A stretch of DNA of 64,000 nucleotides, taken from positions 256,059-320,058 of the forward strand of contig NZ_JAGYWA010000007.1 of the NCBI RefSeq assembly GCF_018383905.1. The letters are read 5' to 3'. This stretch comes from Flavobacterium branchiicola (GTDB taxonomy: Bacteria > Bacteroidota > Bacteroidia > Flavobacteriales > Flavobacteriaceae). Made by a program: the position numbers and the translations under genes. Shown here one piece after another: positions 1,029 to 54,197 of the stretch. Under the pieces are notes generated by a model. That model saw only the letters and a list, made by a program, of their open reading frames with translations, was not told the DNA's origin and did not search any database. The number at the start of each line of letters is the position of its first letter. Position 1 is the stretch's first letter.

Positions 1029-3764
1029 ATGAGAAACCTTTTAATGAGTGGAATTTTGTGCTGCTCGCTGGCAGCAATGAATTCAGTTTATGCCCAAAAA
1101 AAACCTGAACTACCCAAATACATTACAAATGTTGAAGGAATTAAAGAATATTCATTAAATAATGGATTAAAAGTTCTTTTAATTCCGGATGCTTCACAAA
1201 GCAATATGATTGTAAATATTGTCTACAACGTAGGCTCCAGAAATGAAGGCTATGGAGAAAAAGGGATGGCTCATTTACTGGAGCATATGCTTTTTAAAAG
1301 TACCAAAAATTTAGGCGACATAAAAAAAATGCTTTCAGACAAAGGTGGAAATGCAAATGGAACTACCTGGTACGATCGTACAAATTATTATGAAATATTT
1401 CCATCAAGTGACGAGAACTTAAAATGGAGTCTTGAAATGGAAGCAGATCGAATGATTAATGCCACGATTCTGCAAACTGATCTTGATAAAGAATTTTCCG
1501 TGGTAAGAAATGAATTTGAAATTGGCGAAAATAATCCTGATGGCGTTTTGCAGGAAAGAATTATTTCGACTGCTTATTTATGGCATAATTACGGAAATAG
1601 TACAATTGGAAGCAAAGAAGATATTGAGCGCGTAAAAGCGAACAGACTTCGTGTTTTTTATGAAAAATATTATCAGCCGGACAATTCTACTTTAGTGATC
1701 GCTGGTAAGTTTGATGAGAAAAAAGCATTGCAATATGTAGGGCAGTATTTTGCTGTAATTCCGAAACCTAAAAGAGTTTTAGATAAAACCTACACCATTG
1801 AGCCTGCGCAGGACGGAGAGAAATTTGTTGAACTGAAAAGAGCAGGTGACAGTAAAAATGTTGGAGCTCTTTATCATACTGCTCCGTATGCCGATAAAGA
1901 TTATGCAGCAATTGATGCTTTGGCAGAAATTTTAACCGCAGATCCATCGGGATATTTGTATAAATCTTTGGTAGAAACTCAAAAAGTATCCAGCATATAT
2001 TATTGGCAACCAACGGTGCGTGATGCAAGTTTTATGTATTTTGGAGTTGCGGTTCCAAATACTAAAGATATTAAAGCGACCGAGGATATTGTAAGAGCAG
2101 AGCTGGATAAAATTGCGACAACAAAATACACCGATGAGGATGTTAGCAGAGCTAAGGCAAAAATTATCAAACAAATTGAAGATGTAAAAAACAATACCAT
2201 TTCATATGCCATTAATATTACAGAAGTTATAGGATCTGGGGATTTCAGACTTGGTTATTTATATCGTGATACGGTAGAAAAATTGACTAAAGAAGATATT
2301 CAGAGAGTAGCTGAAAAATATTTTAGAAGCAATAATAGAACAGTAGGTGTATTTATTCCTTCAAAAGAAGAAGCAAGAGTTAAATCTGTTGAATATACTG
2401 ATGAACAGATAGCAGCGATCACTAAAGATTACAAAGGAAAAGCTTTAGAAAAAGAAGCCGCTCCTTTTGAGGCTTCGATTAAAAATCTAAAACAAAACTT
2501 AACAGAAGGAAAGTTAAGTAATGGTGTGAAATACGGACTAATTAAAAAAGAAATCAAAGGAGGAAAGGTTCAGGCAAACTTTAAATTTCCTGTAAGTAAT
2601 GAGAAAGAATTAGCAGGAAAAGTTGATACAGGCGGGATTTTGGCTCAATTGCTAACAACCGGAACTACAACAAGAACAAAAGAGCAAATTCAGGATCGAT
2701 TAGATCAGTTAAAATCAAGTATTAACTTTAATTTTTCAAGACAAATCCTTTCGGTTAATATTGCTACTTATAAAGATAGTTTTAAAGAAGTGATGGAGAT
2801 TTTAGGAGATTTGTTGGTTAATTCTACTTTTCCCGAAAATGAACTGAATAAAACAATTACAGAATATAATACGTATCTCGAATCTAATCTGAATGATCCA
2901 CAAACAATTGCAGTTACTGAAATTGCAAGACAAACTGGAAATTATAGTAGAGAGAGTATTTTTTATACGCCTACAATTTCAGAGCAAATAGAGGCTTTTA
3001 AAAAGATAAAACAGAAGGAGATAGTCGATTTTTATAAAAATATCTTAGGAGGGAATAACGGGGTAGGAAGTGTAGTTGGAGATCTGGATGCTAAAACAAC
3101 AGCTCAGATTTTGGAAAATACTTTTGGAAAATGGAATTCAAAATCAAAATATGAATTAGCTAAACCAACTTATTTTGAAACCAGTAAACTAGATAAAGAT
3201 TATAGTACTCCGGATAAGGAAAATGCTATAGCGCTGGGAAAAATAAATTTTAAAATGGATCGTAATAGTCCTGATTATCCTGCATTTGTGATGGCTAACG
3301 AAATTCTGGGCAGTGGAGGTTTCTTAAGTGCGCGTATTCCGATGCGATTGAGAGAAAAAGAAGGGATAAGTTATGGAGCGGGATCTTTTATAGAGGTGCC
3401 ACTAACAAATGATGTTGCTTTTTGGGAATATTATGCATTGCTAAATCCTACAAAGAAAAATGCTGTTGAGGTAGCTGTTAAAGAAGAAATTTCAAAGGCT
3501 TTAAAAGATGGATTTACCGCTGAGGAATTAAAATCTAATTTGGTTAGCTGGCAAAATGAGAGAAAAACAAGATTAGGAAGCGATGATACTTTAATGAATT
3601 TGGTTAATACATATTTGCAGTTCAATGTTCCTTTAGAAGATTATGATGATCTTGAAAACAAAGTAAAAGCTCTAAAAGTTGAAGAAGTTAATACTGCATT
3701 GAGAAAGTATTTAAGTTTAGATAAAATGACTTCGATTTATGCAGGTGATTTTAATAAGAAATAA
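1029..3764 (+). CDS. M16 family zinc metallopeptidase (two-domain, insulinase/pitrilysin-like)
   Basis: A 911-residue exported peptidase. Residues 1-22 form a signal peptide ending in VYAQ, so it acts in the periplasm or at the outer membrane. The inverted zinc motif HLLEH is at 82-86, with the third ligand Glu162 (in VVRNEFE) 75 residues later, as expected for family M16. The second half (from about residue 500) repeats the fold but lacks HxxEH, matching the usual active plus inactive half arrangement in one chain. It stands alone, with a TATATTTG promoter element upstream and a terminator downstream. The substrate is not predictable; related enzymes degrade small peptides and presequences. 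Confidence 0.92.
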   Translation: MRNLLMSGILCCSLAAMNSVYAQKKPELPKYITNVEGIKEYSLNNGLKVLLIPDASQSNMIVNIVYNVGSRNEGYGEKGMAHLLEHMLFKSTKNLGDIKKMLSDKGGNANGTTWYDRTNYYEIFPSSDENLKWSLEMEADRMINATILQTDLDKEFSVVRNEFEIGENNPDGVLQERIISTAYLWHNYGNSTIGSKEDIERVKANRLRVFYEKYYQPDNSTLVIAGKFDEKKALQYVGQYFAVIPKPKRVLDKTYTIEPAQDGEKFVELKRAGDSKNVGALYHTAPYADKDYAAIDALAEILTADPSGYLYKSLVETQKVSSIYYWQPTVRDASFMYFGVAVPNTKDIKATEDIVRAELDKIATTKYTDEDVSRAKAKIIKQIEDVKNNTISYAINITEVIGSGDFRLGYLYRDTVEKLTKEDIQRVAEKYFRSNNRTVGVFIPSKEEARVKSVEYTDEQIAAITKDYKGKALEKEAAPFEASIKNLKQNLTEGKLSNGVKYGLIKKEIKGGKVQANFKFPVSNEKELAGKVDTGGILAQLLTTGTTTRTKEQIQDRLDQLKSSINFNFSRQILSVNIATYKDSFKEVMEILGDLLVNSTFPENELNKTITEYNTYLESNLNDPQTIAVTEIARQTGNYSRESIFYTPTISEQIEAFKKIKQKEIVDFYKNILGGNNGVGSVVGDLDAKTTAQILENTFGKWNSKSKYELAKPTYFETSKLDKDYSTPDKENAIALGKINFKMDRNSPDYPAFVMANEILGSGGFLSARIPMRLREKEGISYGAGSFIEVPLTNDVAFWEYYALLNPTKKNAVEVAVKEEISKALKDGFTAEELKSNLVSWQNERKTRLGSDDTLMNLVNTYLQFNVPLEDYDDLENKVKALKVEEVNTALRKYLSLDKMTSIYAGDFNKK

Positions 3765-43876: not shown

Positions 43877-44377
43877 TTAATTATTAATCATAGGGTTTAA
43901 GTTAGAATCTTTGTTTCGTAAATCTAATCCGCCCTCGTAAATTGATTTCAGATTGGTCAGATAAAAATGCCAGCCGTTTGAACAGCCCAGTCTAATGTAT
44001 TGTTTAGAATAATCATCGGTAGGAATGTTATGATGGCGAAGTTCTACAATAGTATTGCCATTTTCTTCGCTCAATTTTATATCTACCAGACATTCTCCCT
44101 CAAAAGTAAATTGAAGCTCGTCTTTTCCGTTTGCAGAAGTAATTTTACCAATCATAGGGTCTTGGTACAAATACCAAAGCCATTCGTAAGCAGTATCTTG
44201 CGTTGCGTTTTTATCTTTGCTTATTAATTCTTTGTTGGCATCAAAAAAAGAGACTTTCTCAAGAAACCATTTTTCGAGTTCATTTGCTTTGGTCCAGGCA
44301 TTATAAAGGTCTGAAAGCTTAGCCCTAACGGCTATTTTTTTTGTGAATGAAGTCCAGTCGAAATTTTCCATAATCAA
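43877..44377 (-). CDS. SRPBCC (AHSA1-like) domain protein
   Basis: A 166-residue cytoplasmic protein of the START/SRPBCC helix-grip fold: IAVRAKLSDLYNAWTKANELEKWF at the N-terminus, beta strands with LQFTFEGECLVDIKLSEENGNTIVELRHHNIP, and the C-terminal helix RLGCSNGWHFYLTNLKSIYEGG. AHSA1-like proteins bind hydrophobic ligands or act as Hsp90 co-chaperone relatives; the ligand is unknown. An alternative start is the third residue (44371). Its start codon is 6 bases from the stop of the nuclease gene upstream on the same strand, so they are probably cotranscribed. Confidence 0.8.
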   Translation of the reverse strand: MIMENFDWTSFTKKIAVRAKLSDLYNAWTKANELEKWFLEKVSFFDANKELISKDKNATQDTAYEWLWYLYQDPMIGKITSANGKDELQFTFEGECLVDIKLSEENGNTIVELRHHNIPTDDYSKQYIRLGCSNGWHFYLTNLKSIYEGGLDLRNKDSNLNPMINN

Positions 44378-44383
44378 GTAATT

Positions 44384-45202
44384 TTATTGATTTAATGCCC
44401 ACGTCTTTCTTATATATTTATACAAATCTTCACTTACACCCGCAGGGTCTGTAAAAATTTCTGTTCCAGAATATCTAATTACATCATAGCCATTCATTTT
44501 TAATAAACGATCTCTTTTTCTGTCATTTATAAATGATTTTTTTGAATTATGAAATTGAAATCCATCACATTCAATAATTAATTTTAACTTTTCATTTCCG
44601 GGACACCATATTAAGATATCAGGTCTAATACTCTTATTATCTATTTTTAAGTTTGGGAATTCAGGTTGTAATGTTACATAATAGAAATCTAAAGTGAAAT
44701 TTCTAACTATGTAATAATGCCAACAAATTTCTTCATAATCATCTTCCGTATAAATTCCAGAGCTAATAAATGTCTTTCGAAAAGAAAGCTCGAAATTTAT
44801 TAAATTTAGATCACCAGTTTTAACTTTATAACTTTCGACAATCTTTAGCATTTTCTTATGATTATCACGATAGATTTTCATAGTAGATTCTATATCTGGT
44901 ATCTTAGGTGTTATTGTAAAACCAAGAATTCCATTTTTAACAAATAAAAGTAATAATGAACTGATAAACATTCGTTCGATCGGCGATTGACAATTTTCAA
45001 AAATTAAATTTGAATTAGTTTTTGAATAATTATCTAAAAAACGAGAATAAAAATTTGAATAATTGTATTCATATTTAGGTTGCTTTTCTTTTAGTTTAGT
45101 TTCTACAATAGACATTTGCACAAAAAAATCCAATAATGGTTCAAAACTTTCTTTTGACTCTAAGCTTTTTTGCAGAATGATAAGAATGTTTTTGTCTAAC
45201 AT
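44384..45202 (-). CDS. PD-(D/E)XK nuclease-fold protein (DUF559-like)
   Basis: A 272-residue protein whose C-terminal third has the restriction-endonuclease-like signature: Glu76 in SPIERMF, Asp195 in SIRPDILIW, and Glu211/Asp213 in LIIECDGFQFHN, followed by KKSFINDRKRDRLLKMNGYDVIRYSGTEI, the typical end of DUF559/very-short-patch-repair-like folds. The N-terminal 170 residues are helical and unrecognised. It is likely a DNA-cleaving enzyme; whether it is a defence, repair or mobile-element protein is not shown. It lies between a Cro/C1-type regulator gene (40 bases upstream) and an SRPBCC gene (6 bases downstream), all minus strand. Confidence 0.72.
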   Translation of the reverse strand: MLDKNILIILQKSLESKESFEPLLDFFVQMSIVETKLKEKQPKYEYNYSNFYSRFLDNYSKTNSNLIFENCQSPIERMFISSLLLLFVKNGILGFTITPKIPDIESTMKIYRDNHKKMLKIVESYKVKTGDLNLINFELSFRKTFISSGIYTEDDYEEICWHYYIVRNFTLDFYYVTLQPEFPNLKIDNKSIRPDILIWCPGNEKLKLIIECDGFQFHNSKKSFINDRKRDRLLKMNGYDVIRYSGTEIFTDPAGVSEDLYKYIRKTWALNQ

Positions 45203-45242: not shown

Positions 45243-45515
45243 TTACAAATCCTTAATTAATTCACTAGGATGAACTTTTAAGGCTTGAGCAATTTTAAAC
45301 AAAGTGCTTATTTTCATTTCCTGATAACCTTTGATATACTTTCTTAAATTTTCTACATCTAATTCGGCATCGTGAGCGACTTCTCTTGTCTTTAATTGAT
45401 TATTATCAATTGTATCTTTTATCTTGATTCCAAGCTCTTTTACTACTTCTGGAATTTCACTTTTTCGTTCTCTTTTCATAGAAATGAAATTACAAGTAAT
45501 AGATTGTTTTGACAT
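45243..45515 (-). CDS. Cro/C1-type HTH regulator, module A
   Basis: A small DNA-binding protein (90 residues from this start; a start at residue 13, MKRERKSEIP, would give 78). The helix-turn-helix spans REVAHDAELDVENLRKYIKGYQEMKISTLFKIAQALKVHPSELIKDL. The end of the domain matches that of a second regulator at 50955-51197 (INLLIRMAKALDTTSSALLKDL). It is divergent from the small gene at 45591, with a promoter and an imperfect inverted repeat between them, so it probably controls that promoter. The nuclease gene follows 40 bases downstream and may belong to the same transcript. Confidence 0.82.
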   Translation of the reverse strand: MSKQSITCNFISMKRERKSEIPEVVKELGIKIKDTIDNNQLKTREVAHDAELDVENLRKYIKGYQEMKISTLFKIAQALKVHPSELIKDL

Positions 45516-45527
45516 GATTGATTAAAA

Positions 45528-45560
45528 TCGATTGTTTTCAACCGAAATTTTATATATTTG
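45528..45560 (+). promoter_or_regulatory. Promoter and overlapping inverted repeat of module A
   Basis: TTG at 45532-45534 and TATATTTG at 45553-45560 are 18 bases apart, a good Bacteroidota promoter for the gene at 45591. The inverted repeat TCGATTG-TTTT-CAACCGA (45528-45545, one mismatch pair) covers the -33 element, where a repressor would block it. A related direct repeat GATTGTTTT lies at 45502-45510 and 45530-45538. Confidence 0.6.
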
Positions 45561-45590
45561 TATTAATTGTAAATTAAATCTTATATAAAA

Positions 45591-45926
45591 ATGGAAGTAA
45601 AACACAAAAAACAAACGCTCGAATTATCAGAATTAATAAACAAAGGAAATTATTTCACCAAACTAAAACAGGAGGATAAAAAGGACAATTCGTTTCTTGT
45701 ACCGCTGAGCGTAACTTCGTACAACGAATTAAATCTTATGGTATCGGATTTGCTAAAAGCGAGTATTATTTTGCTTAATCCCGATGCTAAAACTTTGTCA
45801 AGTTTTACAAAAGACAATGATGTTAATGTAATGACTTTGCTTGAAATTGCCTTGCAGTTATTACCCGAAGAAGAAATGGAGTTGCTGGATGATTTGCACA
45901 ACCTGCAGTTGAAGGCTAATTTATAA
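45591..45926 (+). CDS. Small conserved protein of the HTH-linked module A (unknown function)
   Basis: A 111-residue soluble, helical protein with no known family. It is clearly homologous to the protein at 50530-50829. Shared segments are NYFTKLK near the N-terminus, VTSYNEL in the middle, and LLEIALQLLPEEEMELLDDLHNL at the C-terminus (LLEMAVKLLPNDEMELLDELYKV in the other). Both are divergent from a Cro/C1-type regulator. No catalytic signature or membrane segment is visible. The function is unknown; an antitoxin, regulator partner or phage-related role is possible, but nothing in the sequence decides it. Confidence 0.72.
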   Translation: MEVKHKKQTLELSELINKGNYFTKLKQEDKKDNSFLVPLSVTSYNELNLMVSDLLKASIILLNPDAKTLSSFTKDNDVNVMTLLEIALQLLPEEEMELLDDLHNLQLKANL

Positions 45927-47762: not shown

Positions 47763-48390
47763 TTTCCCGTCCAGTTTTGTCATTTCGACGGAGGAGACCC
47801 GAGTGCTAGCGAACAGGCGAAGCAAATCTCCGCAATCCGGAGGCTTCGGGACGTAAAGTGTATCACTAATCTTTGTCGAATTACTAACGAAGATTTCTCC
47901 TCCGTCGAAATGACAATATTACGGGGAAAATAGTAGTTTGAAATTACACACAATCTTGTCATCCTGACGAGGGAAGGATCTCCGCAAGTAGCTCCACAAA
48001 GTAAATAAAAAGCAGTTTATCCGCTCCAATTTGTCATTTCGACGAAGGAGAAATCTCCGCAAGAAACTCCACAAAGTAAATCAAAAGCAGTTTTCACACT
48101 CAGTTTTGTCATTTCGATCCCGTCCCGAGGCGTCGGGATCGGGAGAGAAATCACACAAGAAACTCGACAAAGATTGGCGATTCTCCTTGCGGAATCCCGC
48201 GTGCGATTCCTCGTTCCTCGGAATGATAATTTTACACGAAAAATGGTAGTTTGAAATTACACACAATCTTGTCATCCTGACAAAGGAAGGATCTTCGCAA
48301 GTAACTCCACAAAGTAAATTAAAAGCAGTATTCACGCCCAGTTTTGTCATTTCGACGGAGGAGAAATCTTCGCAAGAAACTCTGTAAAGT
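47763..48390. repeat. Cluster of GTCATTTCGACGGAGGAGA-type repeats (left of the GIY-YIG gene)
   Basis: At least five copies of a unit built on TTTGTCATTTCGACGRAGGAG, AATCTCCGCAAG, AACTCCACAAAGTAAAT and AAAAGCAG. The first part (about 47779-47912) is an inverted repeat with arms GTCATTTCGACGGAGGAGA and its complement; others are direct copies spaced by about 75-80 bases. A nested TCCCGA/TCGGGA palindrome sits at 48123-48138. Open frames through these units are side effects of the repeat, not genes. Confidence 0.85.
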
Positions 48391-50145: not shown

Positions 50146-50500
50146 TTTTGTCATCAATGTAGAGAGACCCGAGCGCTAGCGAACAGGCGAAGCAAATCAC
50201 ACAAGAAACTCGACAAAGATTGACGATTCTCTTTGCGGAATCCCGCGTGCGATTCCTCGTTCCTCGGAATGACATGTTTGCGTGAAAAATAGTAGTTTGA
50301 AATTACACATAATTTTGTCATCCTGACGAAGGAAGGATCTCCGCAAGTAGCTCCACAAAGTAAATCAAAAGCAGTATTCACGCTCAGATTTGTCATTTCG
50401 ACGAAGGAGAAATCTCCGCAAAAAACTCGATAAAGATTGGCGATTCTCTTTGGGGAATCCCGTGTGCGATTCCTCCTCTGTCGGAATGACAAAATCGGAT
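50146..50500. repeat. Third cluster of GTCATTTCGACG-type repeats
   Basis: It contains TTTTTGTCATCAATGTAGAGAGACCCGAG, the variant string GCTAGCGAACAGGCGAAGCA (also at 47805), CTCGTTCCTCGGAATGAC near 50256, direct copies TTGTCATCCTGACGAAGGAAG near 50315 and TTGTCATTTCGACGAAGGAG near 50390, and a closing GATTCCTCCTCTGTCGGAATGAC near 50469. The preceding stretch (49918-50145) is AT-rich and holds nothing recognisable. Long open frames across the block are repeat artefacts. Confidence 0.8.
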
Positions 50501-50529
50501 TCTTAAACACTTCGCAGAGTACAAGAAAC

Positions 50530-50829
50530 CTACAAAACCTTATACAACTCATCCAACAATTCCATTTCGTCGTTTGGCAGAAGTTTTACAGCCATTTCGA
50601 GTAAAAGCATGGCATCGTTTGCGGGTTGAGAATTTTCCTGCTGTAGGGTGTTGATACTTGTTCTTAACAAAGAGAAAATGGTTTGCATTAATTCGTTGTA
50701 AGATGTTACAGTGAGATCGGTTTTTAGGGTATTATCCTCTTTTAGATTTGGTTTTAGCTTTGTGAAATAATTTAGATTGGTCGCAAAATTTAAAAAATCG
50801 TTTAATTGTTGTTCTGATTTTTCTTTCAT
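50530..50829 (-). CDS. Small conserved protein of the HTH-linked module B (unknown function)
   Basis: A 99-residue helical protein homologous to the one at 45591-45926: shared NYFTKLK, VTSYNEL and the C-terminal LLEMAVKLLPNDEMELLDELYK. It is divergent from the Cro/C1-type regulator at 50955. Its start codon is followed upstream (minus strand) by the -7 element at 50880-50887 and a perfect 24-base palindrome (50891-50914) that would cover the promoter. No known family, signal peptide or membrane segment. Two copies with the same partner type and divergent layout make a conserved two-gene module likely. Confidence 0.72.
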   Translation of the reverse strand: MKEKSEQQLNDFLNFATNLNYFTKLKPNLKEDNTLKTDLTVTSYNELMQTIFSLLRTSINTLQQENSQPANDAMLLLEMAVKLLPNDEMELLDELYKVL

Positions 50830-50879: not shown

Positions 50880-50914
50880 CAAATATAATAAAATTCGACT
50901 TATAAGTCGAATTT
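50880..50914 (-). promoter_or_regulatory. Promoter and 24-bp palindromic operator of module B
   Basis: On the minus strand TATATTTG (50887-50880) is a -7 element for the gene at 50829. Immediately upstream, 50891-50914 is a perfect palindrome with half-site AAATTCGACTTA. It occupies the spacer and -33 position, the classic place for a repressor operator. The divergent HTH protein is the obvious candidate to bind it. Confidence 0.65.
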
Positions 50915-50954
50915 ATTTTAAAGATTGATGAGGTTACTTCTTTTTCTTTGTTTT

Positions 50955-51197
50955 ATGAAGACGATTGATAAATTAGAAGAAGAAATAGTCGATAGAATTT
51001 ATAAACTTTTCCTGGAAAAATACGCAGGAAACAAGAGTGCTTTTGCAAAAGCAAGTAACTGCACAGAAACCACTGTACGAAGAATTTTAAGAAAAGAACA
51101 AGGTATTACTATAAATCTTCTGATTAGAATGGCAAAAGCGCTTGATACAACTTCTAGTGCGCTTTTGAAAGATCTGTATATTAAAAATGAAGAATAA
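50955..51197 (+). CDS. Cro/C1-like HTH regulator, module B
   Basis: An 80-residue DNA-binding protein. The start at 50955 (MKTIDKLEEEIVDRIYKL) is preferred over an upstream in-frame ATG at 50925, which adds only LLLFLCF-type residues. The helix-turn-helix lies in NKSAFAKASNCTETTVRRILRKEQGITINLLIRMAKALDTTSSALLKDL, with the same end as the module A regulator. It is divergent from the small gene at 50829, and a perfect palindrome sits between them. A hairpin terminator follows. Confidence 0.82.
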   Translation: MKTIDKLEEEIVDRIYKLFLEKYAGNKSAFAKASNCTETTVRRILRKEQGITINLLIRMAKALDTTSSALLKDLYIKNEE

Positions 51198-51269
51198 ATG
51201 CCGTTCTTAAGTTGAATATTTAGAGAAATTGTTGGGAGGGAAGTAAGTTCCTTTTTTGATAAAGAATAG

Positions 51270-52043: not shown

Positions 52044-53264
52044 TTACATCTGATTAAGCCTTCTTAGACTTTCAATTTGTCGTTGTTCAAAATCTAATTG
52101 CATTTCATAATCTTCTTTCCATTCAATTCTTGCCTTATTTCTAATTAATTCGAAATGTTTTTTATCTATATCCATAGGATTGTGTAGTTTTAGATTTTCA
52201 ACAGCGGTTTTTTGTTTTTCGATATAATATAGTTGCATTTCGAAATCTGTAGGCCACTCAATTTCACTGTTCTTTTTAATAATAATATTAGAGTTTGCAT
52301 AATAATCGTCATCTTCAGAAATAAAACTTTTTGTTTCAGAAAAAGTATCGCTTGATACATTTGATGACGTAATAAGGTGTTTAATTTCCTTTAAATGATT
52401 ATCTCTTTTTCTTTCCCAGATGGAAGTATTAATAGGGAATATGTTTAGATATTTTTCAATTAGTTCTTTAAAACTATTGTATCCTTCTTTTTCATCAATC
52501 TTCATTCCATGACTAGTTGGTATAACTCCTTTCATATCGCTGTAATCAAAAGGTGGAATCAACATTGGAATATGGTCATTTGTTTTAATCCAAGTGGCGC
52601 CCATCTCACATAAGCTGATAACACTTGAATAGAAATTATTTGAAAGTATAAAAATTACTAGAACATTTTCGCTTAATTCATTCCTTAACTGTTCTAAGAA
52701 ATCTTTACCTAGTTTAATTCCATATCCTTCAAATGATGAACAGAAAATCTTATTACTAGGAACTCCAATAGTCTCTAAAAGATCGATGATTTTTTCAACA
52801 TATTTTGAATCTAAACTTGAATGGCTAATAAAAATTTTATTCATGATTTTATTTGTTTTCGCATCTTCATATTCTGGAAAAGTGTTTTCTATAAATTTTA
52901 AATTTCTTTGTAAAAGAATGAGAACATCAATTTTTTTTTGACAGCTTTCTTTAAAATTTTTAAGTTTGAAATGTAATATATTTTCATCTGATTCTTTTAG
53001 CACTTCTGCCAGTGGCTCCAAATCAAAGCGATCCACATCAATAAAATCATTTAAATATTCATTTGGAAGAACAGAATTAAATCGTACTTTTAAAAAATTA
53101 ATTACTTCTTTATTCCAAAAATTAAAATCTCTTTTTAGAGACTTTAATTTTACTAAAGTAATATCTTTATTCGTATGCCGGTCTTCAAGAGTATTTCCTT
53201 CTAAAATATATTGCTCTAGTTCTTTTGAAAACTCTGCCCTAGGGTAATTTAATGTTATATTCAA
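52044..53264 (-). CDS. TIR-domain protein with helical N-terminus and duplicated C-terminal motif
   Basis: A 406-residue protein. A TIR domain spans about 143-285: NKIFISHSSLDSKYVEKIIDLL, SSFEGYGIKLGKDF, ENVLVIFILSNNFYSS, and LCEMGATWIK, where Glu220 is at the position of the catalytic Glu of NAD-cleaving TIRs. Residues 1-130 are helical with a KSLKRDFNFWNKEVINFLKVRF segment and are not a family I know. The C-terminal 75 residues hold two copies of IEW..D.EMQL (near 335 and 380). It follows a paralogous TIR gene with a 63-base gap. No ThsA, CBASS or Pycsar partner is present. NADase/defence activity is inferred. Confidence 0.85.
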   Translation of the reverse strand: MNITLNYPRAEFSKELEQYILEGNTLEDRHTNKDITLVKLKSLKRDFNFWNKEVINFLKVRFNSVLPNEYLNDFIDVDRFDLEPLAEVLKESDENILHFKLKNFKESCQKKIDVLILLQRNLKFIENTFPEYEDAKTNKIMNKIFISHSSLDSKYVEKIIDLLETIGVPSNKIFCSSFEGYGIKLGKDFLEQLRNELSENVLVIFILSNNFYSSVISLCEMGATWIKTNDHIPMLIPPFDYSDMKGVIPTSHGMKIDEKEGYNSFKELIEKYLNIFPINTSIWERKRDNHLKEIKHLITSSNVSSDTFSETKSFISEDDDYYANSNIIIKKNSEIEWPTDFEMQLYYIEKQKTAVENLKLHNPMDIDKKHFELIRNKARIEWKEDYEMQLDFEQRQIESLRRLNQM

Positions 53265-53327: not shown

Positions 53328-54197
53328 CTATTTTAATAAACTATTGATTTTTAATAAGTATTCTTCTCTTTTTTCTTCCCATCTTGTAAAGCTAATTGGA
53401 GACAAATTAAAATAGAGTTCCAACTGCTCTTTAAAAGAATTAAGTTGATTTTTATCATTTATTTTGAAACCAATAGAGTTAGGGAAAACACCTTCCATGC
53501 TTTTAAAGTCAAATGGAGGAATTAGAATTGGTATTTGTTTATTTGATTTAATCCATATTGCACCCATTTCACAAAGGCAAACAGGACTTTTGTAAAAATT
53601 CTCACTTAGCATAAAAAGTGCAAGAACATTTTCATCGAGTTCTCTTTTTAGACGTTCGAAAATATTTTCCCCTAATGAAATTCCGTATGAAGAATGAGAA
53701 GAATAAAAGATTTGATTTTCAGAAACTCCAATTCCTTCAATTAAATCAATTAAGGGTTTGATTTTTTCCTTATCGATTGATGAATGACTAATAAAAATTT
53801 TTTTCATGTTTTTTGTACTATTGTTTTTATCAAATGGGATTAGTTGTTCTTTAAAAGGTAATAAATCAATGTTTTTGAGATAATTCGTTTTCGTTATTGC
53901 TGTCTCTAGATGTAGAATTTGCTTTGGTAAGCAATAGATAACGTTACGACGTTTAGCTTGAAATGAATTGTCATCTATGTTGACATTGCCTAATAGTTTT
54001 ATGTTTAAATACATGTTAAATAATTGCTTATCAATATAGGCATTTTTTAAGATTTCATGATTAGTATCATTCCATTTTTTGTATTTTATTAAAAAATTAT
54101 CAAGCTGATTTGTACTTGAAATATTCTCAATTTGATTATTTAAATCTTCACCATTATTCTTTTGGGTTTTTAAGGCTAAAATAAGATTTTCTTTCAT
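53328..54197 (-). CDS. TIR-domain protein, shorter paralogue
   Basis: A 289-residue protein. The TIR domain at about 133-283 is closely similar to that of the next gene (MKKIFISHSSIDKEKIKPLIDLIEGIGVSENQIF, YGISLGE, ENVLALFMLSENFY, CLCEMGAIWIK with Glu210, IPILIPPFDF). The N-terminal 125 residues are helical with FLIKYKKWNDTNHEILKNAY, resembling the W-containing helix of the larger protein, so both share a two-part architecture. It lacks the C-terminal duplication. It is the first of the pair on the minus strand. The pair may act as a sensor plus effector or as two effectors; the partner and trigger are unknown. Confidence 0.85.
   Translation of the reverse strand: MKENLILALKTQKNNGEDLNNQIENISSTNQLDNFLIKYKKWNDTNHEILKNAYIDKQLFNMYLNIKLLGNVNIDDNSFQAKRRNVIYCLPKQILHLETAITKTNYLKNIDLLPFKEQLIPFDKNNSTKNMKKIFISHSSIDKEKIKPLIDLIEGIGVSENQIFYSSHSSYGISLGENIFERLKRELDENVLALFMLSENFYKSPVCLCEMGAIWIKSNKQIPILIPPFDFKSMEGVFPNSIGFKINDKNQLNSFKEQLELYFNLSPISFTRWEEKREEYLLKINSLLK

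Follow-up and report, generated by a model that had tools for sequence, protein, structure and literature searches.

The window analyzed here, a 64,000-nucleotide stretch of the Flavobacterium branchiicola genome, carries two related small-protein genes (SMALL A and SMALL B), each divergent from a gene for a Cro/C1-type (XRE) regulator. In the interpretation that we favor, and which we consider reasonably probable, the XRE gene, an operator, and SMALL form a self-contained unit in which the regulator is an exchangeable cassette and SMALL is of probable ICE descent. At the sequence level, the pairing itself, operators specific to each regulator class (class d excepted), the replacement and loss of regulators, and connections to HEPN-type proteins through shared operons and gene fusions are all evident. 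Beyond these, we infer DNA binding and repression by the XRE protein, an adaptor role for SMALL, and an origin in ICEs. The relevant features of the window are as follows.

43877..44377, minus strand: AHSA1/SRPBCC gene by Pfam, cargo (cluster c6)
44384..45202, minus strand: MTES_1575/DUF559-like nuclease gene by Pfam, cargo, behind HTHa (singleton cluster c201)
45243..45479, minus strand: HTHa, a Cro/C1-type regulator of 78 aa (HTH_26), oriented divergently to SMALL A
45516..45542, no strand: putative a-type operator GATTGATTAAAATCGATTGTTTTCAAC, in the divergent region of module A
45553..45560, plus strand: TATATTTG, a putative -7 element (Bacteroidota type) for the SMALL A promoter, assigned from its sequence
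45591..45926, plus strand: SMALL A, 111 aa, the conserved member of module A
50530..50829, minus strand: SMALL B, a 99-aa paralogue of SMALL A
50892..50913, no strand: putative b-type operator AATTCGACTTATAAGTCGAATT, a perfect 22-bp palindrome
50955..51197, plus strand: HTHb, the 80-aa Cro/C1-type regulator of module B (class b)
51211..51246, plus strand: relic of a class-d XRE C terminus (VEYLEKLLGGK-stop), directly behind HTHb, read by eye

The open reading frames of both regulators extend beyond the start codons given above. The HTHa frame reaches 45515 on the minus strand and orthologue alignments begin at MKRERK; its start is probably the internal ATG at 45479, as in relatives. The HTHb frame with a TTG start begins at 50925 (50925-51197, plus strand), and here too an internal ATG, at 50955, probably serves as the start, judging from relatives. 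The reverse complement of the a-type operator differs from the class-a motif at one position, and the b-type operator is the sole site with ≤3 mismatches in the window's genome assembly. The assignment of TATATTTG as a putative -7 element follows the consensus for Bacteroidota promoters.

The homology of the two small proteins, proposed by the sequence-only reading, holds: 39 of 84 aligned positions are identical (E value of 4e-18), and NYFTKLK, VTSYNEL, and the LLExAxxLLPxxEMELLDxL tail are common to both. The positions of the open reading frames likewise confirm the stated arrangement, in which each small-protein gene diverges from an HTH gene of the Cro/C1 type. By the Pfam cut-offs, both regulators carry a Cro/C1 HTH domain: HTHa scores 31.9 bits against HTH_26 (E value of 1.6e-7; cut-off, 22) and 24.9 bits against HTH_3 (cut-off, 23), and HTHb scores 23.5 bits against HTH_3 (E value of 5.7e-5; cut-off, 23). 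Matching C termini had been taken as a sign that the two regulators are related; however, BLASTP yields no alignment between them at E values of ≤100. Their shared last residues thus reflect an ending common to Cro/C1 domains and are no evidence of a duplicated regulator. Consequently, the modules are not two copies of one pair, as had been suggested: the SMALLs are paralogous, but HTHa and HTHb belong to different classes and are unrelated beyond the HTH domain. Nor is the family limited to two members in this genome, which contains seven copies (SMALL A, SMALL B, three paired with class-d XREs, and two that lack an adjacent XRE).

Pairing was surveyed in a census of 125 SMALL open reading frames from 108 loci, comprising 100 stretches, L207, L192 to L196, and the two window modules. 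The stretches derive from 19 genomes and were hand-picked from the SMALL matches listed (L302 from the HTHa matches) rather than drawn at random; L302 contains no SMALL open reading frame, and some species overlap with loci L061 to L139. A divergent XRE gene accompanies 83/125 SMALL genes (one XRE being truncated), and none is adjacent to the remaining 42/125. The divergent co-occurrence is therefore recurrent, as anticipated, and the description of a conserved two-gene unit stands to that extent but not as an obligatory arrangement. Class d is the largest, with 59 genes (28 with an adjacent HTHd and 31 with HTHd 0.7 to 2.2 kb upstream), followed by class a (n = 10), class e (n = 4), classes a2 and b (n = 3 each), class c (n = 2, plus one truncated), and class f (n = 1). 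These classes include hand corrections at L211, L219, L253, L269, L276, L284, L289, and L296, before which 44 SMALL genes had been called without an XRE. Eight of these 44 have upstream XRE matches (E value of <0.01) and none has a downstream match at this threshold; two of the eight, at L211 and L284, are intact XREs. In Flavobacterium hungaricum, an HTHa-SMALL unit occurs in tandem, with copies about 2.6 kb apart (L101:7651-10883).

Of the seven XRE classes, all but class d have a putative operator motif of their own in the intergenic region (a, a2, b, c, e, and f). When the 330 bp upstream of every census SMALL were scanned, the operator matched the class of the XRE in 8/10 class-a, 3/3 a2, 3/3 b, 4/4 e, 1/1 f, 1/2 c, and 1/1 truncated c cases, and the census contained no cross-match between operator and XRE class. 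The misses comprise class-a loci L223 and L234, L211 (where the long open reading frame called begins within the XRE), and all class-d genes; for class d, no operator could be defined, and 0/59 genes match the six motifs within this span. Control scans gave 0/125 matches on the downstream side and 8 matches in 2,500 shuffled upstream regions. Motifs a, a2, b, and c were derived from loci within the genus, motifs e and f from the census itself, and the degenerate 27-mer discussed below from the loci on which it was scored; thus, these matches are not independent tests. The agreement of operator and XRE class wherever both were found supports the separate specificities first proposed for the two modules.

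The operators also occur without their regulators: 35/42 SMALLs lacking an adjacent XRE retain an operator motif. The b operator has one site each in G000 and G008, both of which carry HTHb, and none in four other genomes, in whose examined SMALL loci no HTHb was seen. The a/class II pattern (≤3 mismatches) lies upstream of SMALL in 12/12 genomes, with one further three-mismatch match in G042. The c operator has one or two sites per genome, and because a reversed-pattern control gives zero to three, its uniqueness is weak. The matches listed for genomes carrying a2 orphan operators include no a2-type XRE, and a search of 11 genomes carrying c orphan operators found no close orthologue of HTHc. 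Repression by a neighbor does not account for such a2- and c-type orphan operators, whose genomes show no recognizable cognate XRE in these searches. Six SMALLs without an adjacent XRE (L225, L231, L237, L241, L255, and L259) have both e and f operators upstream, which would suit control of a single gene by two regulators.

Traces of regulator replacement are found where closely related SMALLs adjoin different XREs. The SMALL proteins of L111 (with HTHd) and L118 (with HTHb) are 90% identical. At the DNA level, the two loci match from roughly 24 bp ahead of the start codon through the end of SMALL and are unlike upstream; similarity resumes in the HTHd tail, 29 codons of which lie behind HTHb in L118. 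Class-d relics behind HTHb are detectable by tblastn at L061, L118, and L128 (E values of 1.1e-5, 1.3e-7, and 2.9e-4, respectively). The window relic at 51211-51246 is shorter than these, consisting of eleven codons and a stop, and HTHb and its operator in module B thus seem to stand in place of a former class-d regulator. In the same genome, the two SMALLs without an XRE have upstream relics of a2-type and c-type XREs. Judging from such remains, the XRE is the member that is lost and SMALL is the one that is kept, and regulator and operator have repeatedly been exchanged or lost while SMALL stayed in place.

Module A offers a larger series for comparison. The A-type set contains 45 loci; L101 contributes one of its two units. 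Left out of the set are L102 and L132, whose SMALL is truncated, L103 and L106, which are of other types, and L107 to L130 and L133 to L139, which were later additions. HTHa is present in 25/45 loci and absent from 20. In the other HTHa-bearing loci, relatives 77 to 90% identical to HTHa adjoin SMALL. On the SMALL-A tree, the presence and absence of HTHa require 13 changes (bootstrap, 12 to 14, not yet stabilized), with at least eight forced by well-supported branches, and the two states show no more clustering than randomly permuted labels do (99/500 as low). In nine pairs, each of one locus with and one without HTHa, identity is 42 to 52% over the 60 bp that lead up to the start codon of SMALL and 75 to 97% over the 60 bp that follow it; for L073 and L078, identity jumps from 48% to 95 to 100% at the start codon. 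Two loci with HTHa, L066 and L069, are 95 to 100% identical across most of HTHa and SMALL and 27 to 48% identical beyond, on both sides.

All 20 HTHa-less loci keep the putative operator, with ≤1 mismatch to a degenerate 27-mer that was derived from these same loci. Within them, operator columns average 1.64 bits, against 0.14 to 0.39 bits in the preceding 150 bp (0.14 to 0.21 bits in the four 30-bp blocks located 30 to 150 bp upstream); conservation also extends over the 45 bp that follow the operator (1.23 and 1.17 bits). No HTHa relatives are listed for the nine HTHa-less genomes among those scanned with the a/class II pattern, except for an a2-type XRE in G116. Decay is visible as a broken HTHa in G226, an HTHa pseudogene beside the operator in L207, and short HTHa relics in L062, L065, and L291. 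Decay as the sole origin of HTHa-less loci was rejected, as the alternation over the SMALL-A tree requires exchange in addition. Median pairwise dN/dS is 0.26 for SMALL where HTHa is present, 0.30 where it is absent, and 0.12 for HTHa. In SMALL-less genomes, HTHa relatives have varied neighbors, with no common partner seen by eye. In G198, the gene that diverges from HTHa and its a-like operator is an unrelated open reading frame of 77 aa in the SMALL position (L302:2511-2795 and 2900-3133), which suggests that the partner, SMALL, may be replaceable too.

SMALL is an uncharacterized protein family. It is present in 57/199 Flavobacterium genomes, with up to 17 matches per genome, and at the order level in 29/395 genomes, 7 of which lie outside Flavobacterium; 79 named relatives all belong to Flavobacterium or Flavobacteriaceae, including one under an old [Flexibacter] name. 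The C terminus is acidic and conserved, and residues L84, L90, E95, and L99 (SMALL A numbering) are invariant across 24 aligned sequences. An AlphaFold (AF2) model of SMALL A, of moderate confidence (mean pLDDT, 75.5; pTM, 0.52), is mainly helical, with helices at residues 2-18, 44-62, 80-89, and 93-110. In sequence searches, none of Pfam, NCBIfam, and PADLOC yielded a match reaching its cut-off (the best in Pfam scored 18.4 bits against 23.4), and there was nothing significant in PHROGs (best E value of 0.057) or in a profile search of the PDB (best E value of 0.046). The model likewise has no Foldseek match in the PDB or BFVD at E values of ≤0.001 and no structural neighbor by VIA-align (best Z score, 5.4). 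No description of an XRE/operator/SMALL unit was recognized in the open-license PMC literature.

Further context for SMALL comes from ICE-like loci, where it follows HEPN-type (c23-type) proteins, sometimes in tandem, and a class-d XRE is divergent from the operon. Of 11 loci outside the genus (L316 to L326), 9 contain a HEPN-type protein, as judged by eye. In L316 and L317, SMALL forms the C-terminal domain of such a protein (residues 280-383 and 282-383; E value of about 4e-19 at an arbitrary database size of 1,000), and the L316 fusion (L316:2439-3602) matches Pfam HEPN above cut-off at residues 138-249. In contrast, SMALL at L319 and L324, both in one genome outside the genus, is divergent from an HTHd-like XRE with no HEPN-type gene, so that an ICE origin is no more than probable. 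L125 has a MobA/VirD2-type relaxase gene and a MobC-type gene nearby, and L322 a coupling protein gene. HEPN RNases carry the motif R-x4-6-H; strings of this form are present in the sequences of the HEPN partner and the fusions. SMALL as a diverged copy of a HEPN protein was also considered and was rejected on a negative profile comparison.

On the basis of its structural model, the operon partner of SMALL has a HEPN fold: c23 aligns to the VirD2-binding protein (VBP) of Agrobacterium (PDB entry 4nqf) with a Z score of 18.9 and an rmsd of 2.2 over 149 residues, and the C-terminal half of c23 retrieves the same entry with a Foldseek E value of 1.8e-4. The c23 model is weak overall (mean pLDDT, 57), with a low-confidence N-terminal part, and because HEPN is also a common fold, the likeness to VBP is a lead only. 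According to PMC3953389, VBP consists of a nucleotidyltransferase plus a HEPN domain and brings the VirD2 complex to the coupling protein. The SMALL partner resembles VBP in its HEPN fold and in the relaxase or coupling-protein genes near it in the two loci examined. It differs in the extra presence of SMALL. No partner protein matched Pfam above cut-off, the N-terminal nucleotidyltransferase domain of VBP included, and no HEPN protein lies beside window module A or B.

In the mechanism that we propose, the XRE protein would bind the putative operator in the shared promoter region and repress both its own gene and the divergent gene for SMALL, a mainly helical product of about 100 aa. For module A, repression is suggested by the position of the operator (45516-45542) relative to the -7 element (45553-45560). 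Regulator, operator, and promoter would constitute an exchangeable cassette, with unrelated XRE/operator cassettes placed before SMALL by recombination at a breakpoint at or just before its start codon; the regulator would often be deleted, leaving SMALL and the operator. SMALL itself would probably descend from ICE operons, as the partner or fused C-terminal domain of VBP-like HEPN-type proteins, and chromosomal SMALLs would be domesticated adaptor or interaction proteins. The operon and fusion evidence points to a possible role for SMALL as an interaction partner in or against conjugation. A bolder extension, which we regard as quite improbable, is that SMALLs are domesticated ICE-derived proteins acting on conjugative elements, for instance as decoy partners of VBP-like HEPN proteins that limit transfer or entry. 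The cassettes would then provide interchangeable specificity, and orphan operators would be kept as sensors of foreign XRE repressors, since SMALL would answer to the XREs of incoming or resident elements.

Retention of the operator after loss of the regulator is also what would be expected if operators were read in trans by other regulators, XRE adjacency being one arrangement of several in an ordinary regulon. The 35 orphan operators favor this account, and the a2 and c orphans lack a recognizable cognate among the matches listed and in the 11 genomes, respectively, as would fit reading by other regulators. Operator sites that are single or nearly single per genome (a/class II in 12/12 genomes; b in two genomes) argue against a regulon, as do the one or two sites of the c operator, although its control counts of zero to three blunt this last point; overall, we find trans reading unlikely. 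An antirepressor pair, in which SMALL binds the neighboring XRE and relieves repression as a switch, is also unlikely. Divergent genes with operators between them and a conserved acidic C terminus suited to protein contacts are in keeping with it. However, SMALL persists at A-type loci without HTHa under a median dN/dS of 0.30, 42 census SMALLs have no adjacent XRE, and the 90% identical SMALLs of L111 and L118 lie beside unrelated XREs, so that one SMALL would need to recognize several unrelated regulators.

Two further explanations carry little weight. Subthreshold matches of HTHb and of one HTHd to HigA and other antitoxin models hint at a type II toxin-antitoxin system with the XRE as antitoxin and SMALL as toxin. 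Such a system is very improbable given that the genes are divergent rather than operonic, that it is the putative antitoxin that disappears and the putative toxin that remains intact, that 42/125 SMALL genes have no adjacent XRE, and that SMALL matches no toxin family or fold in Pfam, NCBIfam, PADLOC, or Foldseek searches. A remnant of prophage immunity regions is hardly credible: the swapping of regulator and operator resembles phage immunity mosaicism by analogy and the XREs match phage repressor families, but no SMALL relative was found in IMG/VR by a pattern-based scan or in phage records by tblastn, and the b and c operators have no exact match in viral contigs.

The exchangeable-cassette reading has a parallel in temperate phages, which swap immunity regions by exchanging repressor and operators as a block. 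As in those regions, regulator and operator are replaced jointly, the neighboring gene stays, and several specificities coexist. SMALL units differ in occupying chromosomal or ICE-like loci (the viral and phage collections that were searched yielded no relative of SMALL) and in that their regulators are often lost outright with the operator kept. A second parallel is with HigA and similar XRE antitoxins and with XRE repressors divergent from small effectors, which share a Cro/C1-type regulator, a palindromic site, and a divergent promoter region with the units described here; unlike their partners, SMALL matches no recognized family of toxins or effectors and outlasts its regulator. The closely related loci form a natural series in which regulator and operator have been swapped, deleted, or kept before one gene, making regulator replacement and the survival of an operator beyond its regulator directly testable. 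They also draw attention to SMALL as an unnamed small-protein family, at up to 17 copies per genome, with links to HEPN-type proteins of conjugative elements.

Finally, the genes surrounding the unit are variable. The nuclease and SRPBCC genes had been described as following the regulator of module A on the same strand; this placement is correct here, but the genes are not part of the module. Among the 20 HTHa-bearing loci that have a gene behind HTHa, the first such gene falls into 17 different clusters, and AHSA1/SRPBCC cluster c6 comprises 22 genes in 21 island loci, mostly away from the unit. Compared across loci, both genes are variable cargo outside the unit. None of 10 cargo genes adjoining the unit matched Pfam above cut-off. 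The stretch from a GreA-like gene (window 46278) to prfA (55240) is a variable site whose gene content differs among Flavobacterium species in the stretches listed; prfA is present in 39 of the 80 stretches compared (79 loci and the window). Adjoining module B, two neighboring genes (52044-53264 and 53328-54197) match the PADLOC spbK model (E values of 8.7e-45 and 9.2e-50). The open reading frames at 48081-48350 and 50154-50552 share cluster c114 and resemble dispersed repeat DNA rather than genes. In L071, a 60-aa SMALL-matching fragment (L071:9932-10114) lies about 1.6 kb behind the intact gene, an arrangement suggesting that SMALL copies may themselves take part in island recombination.
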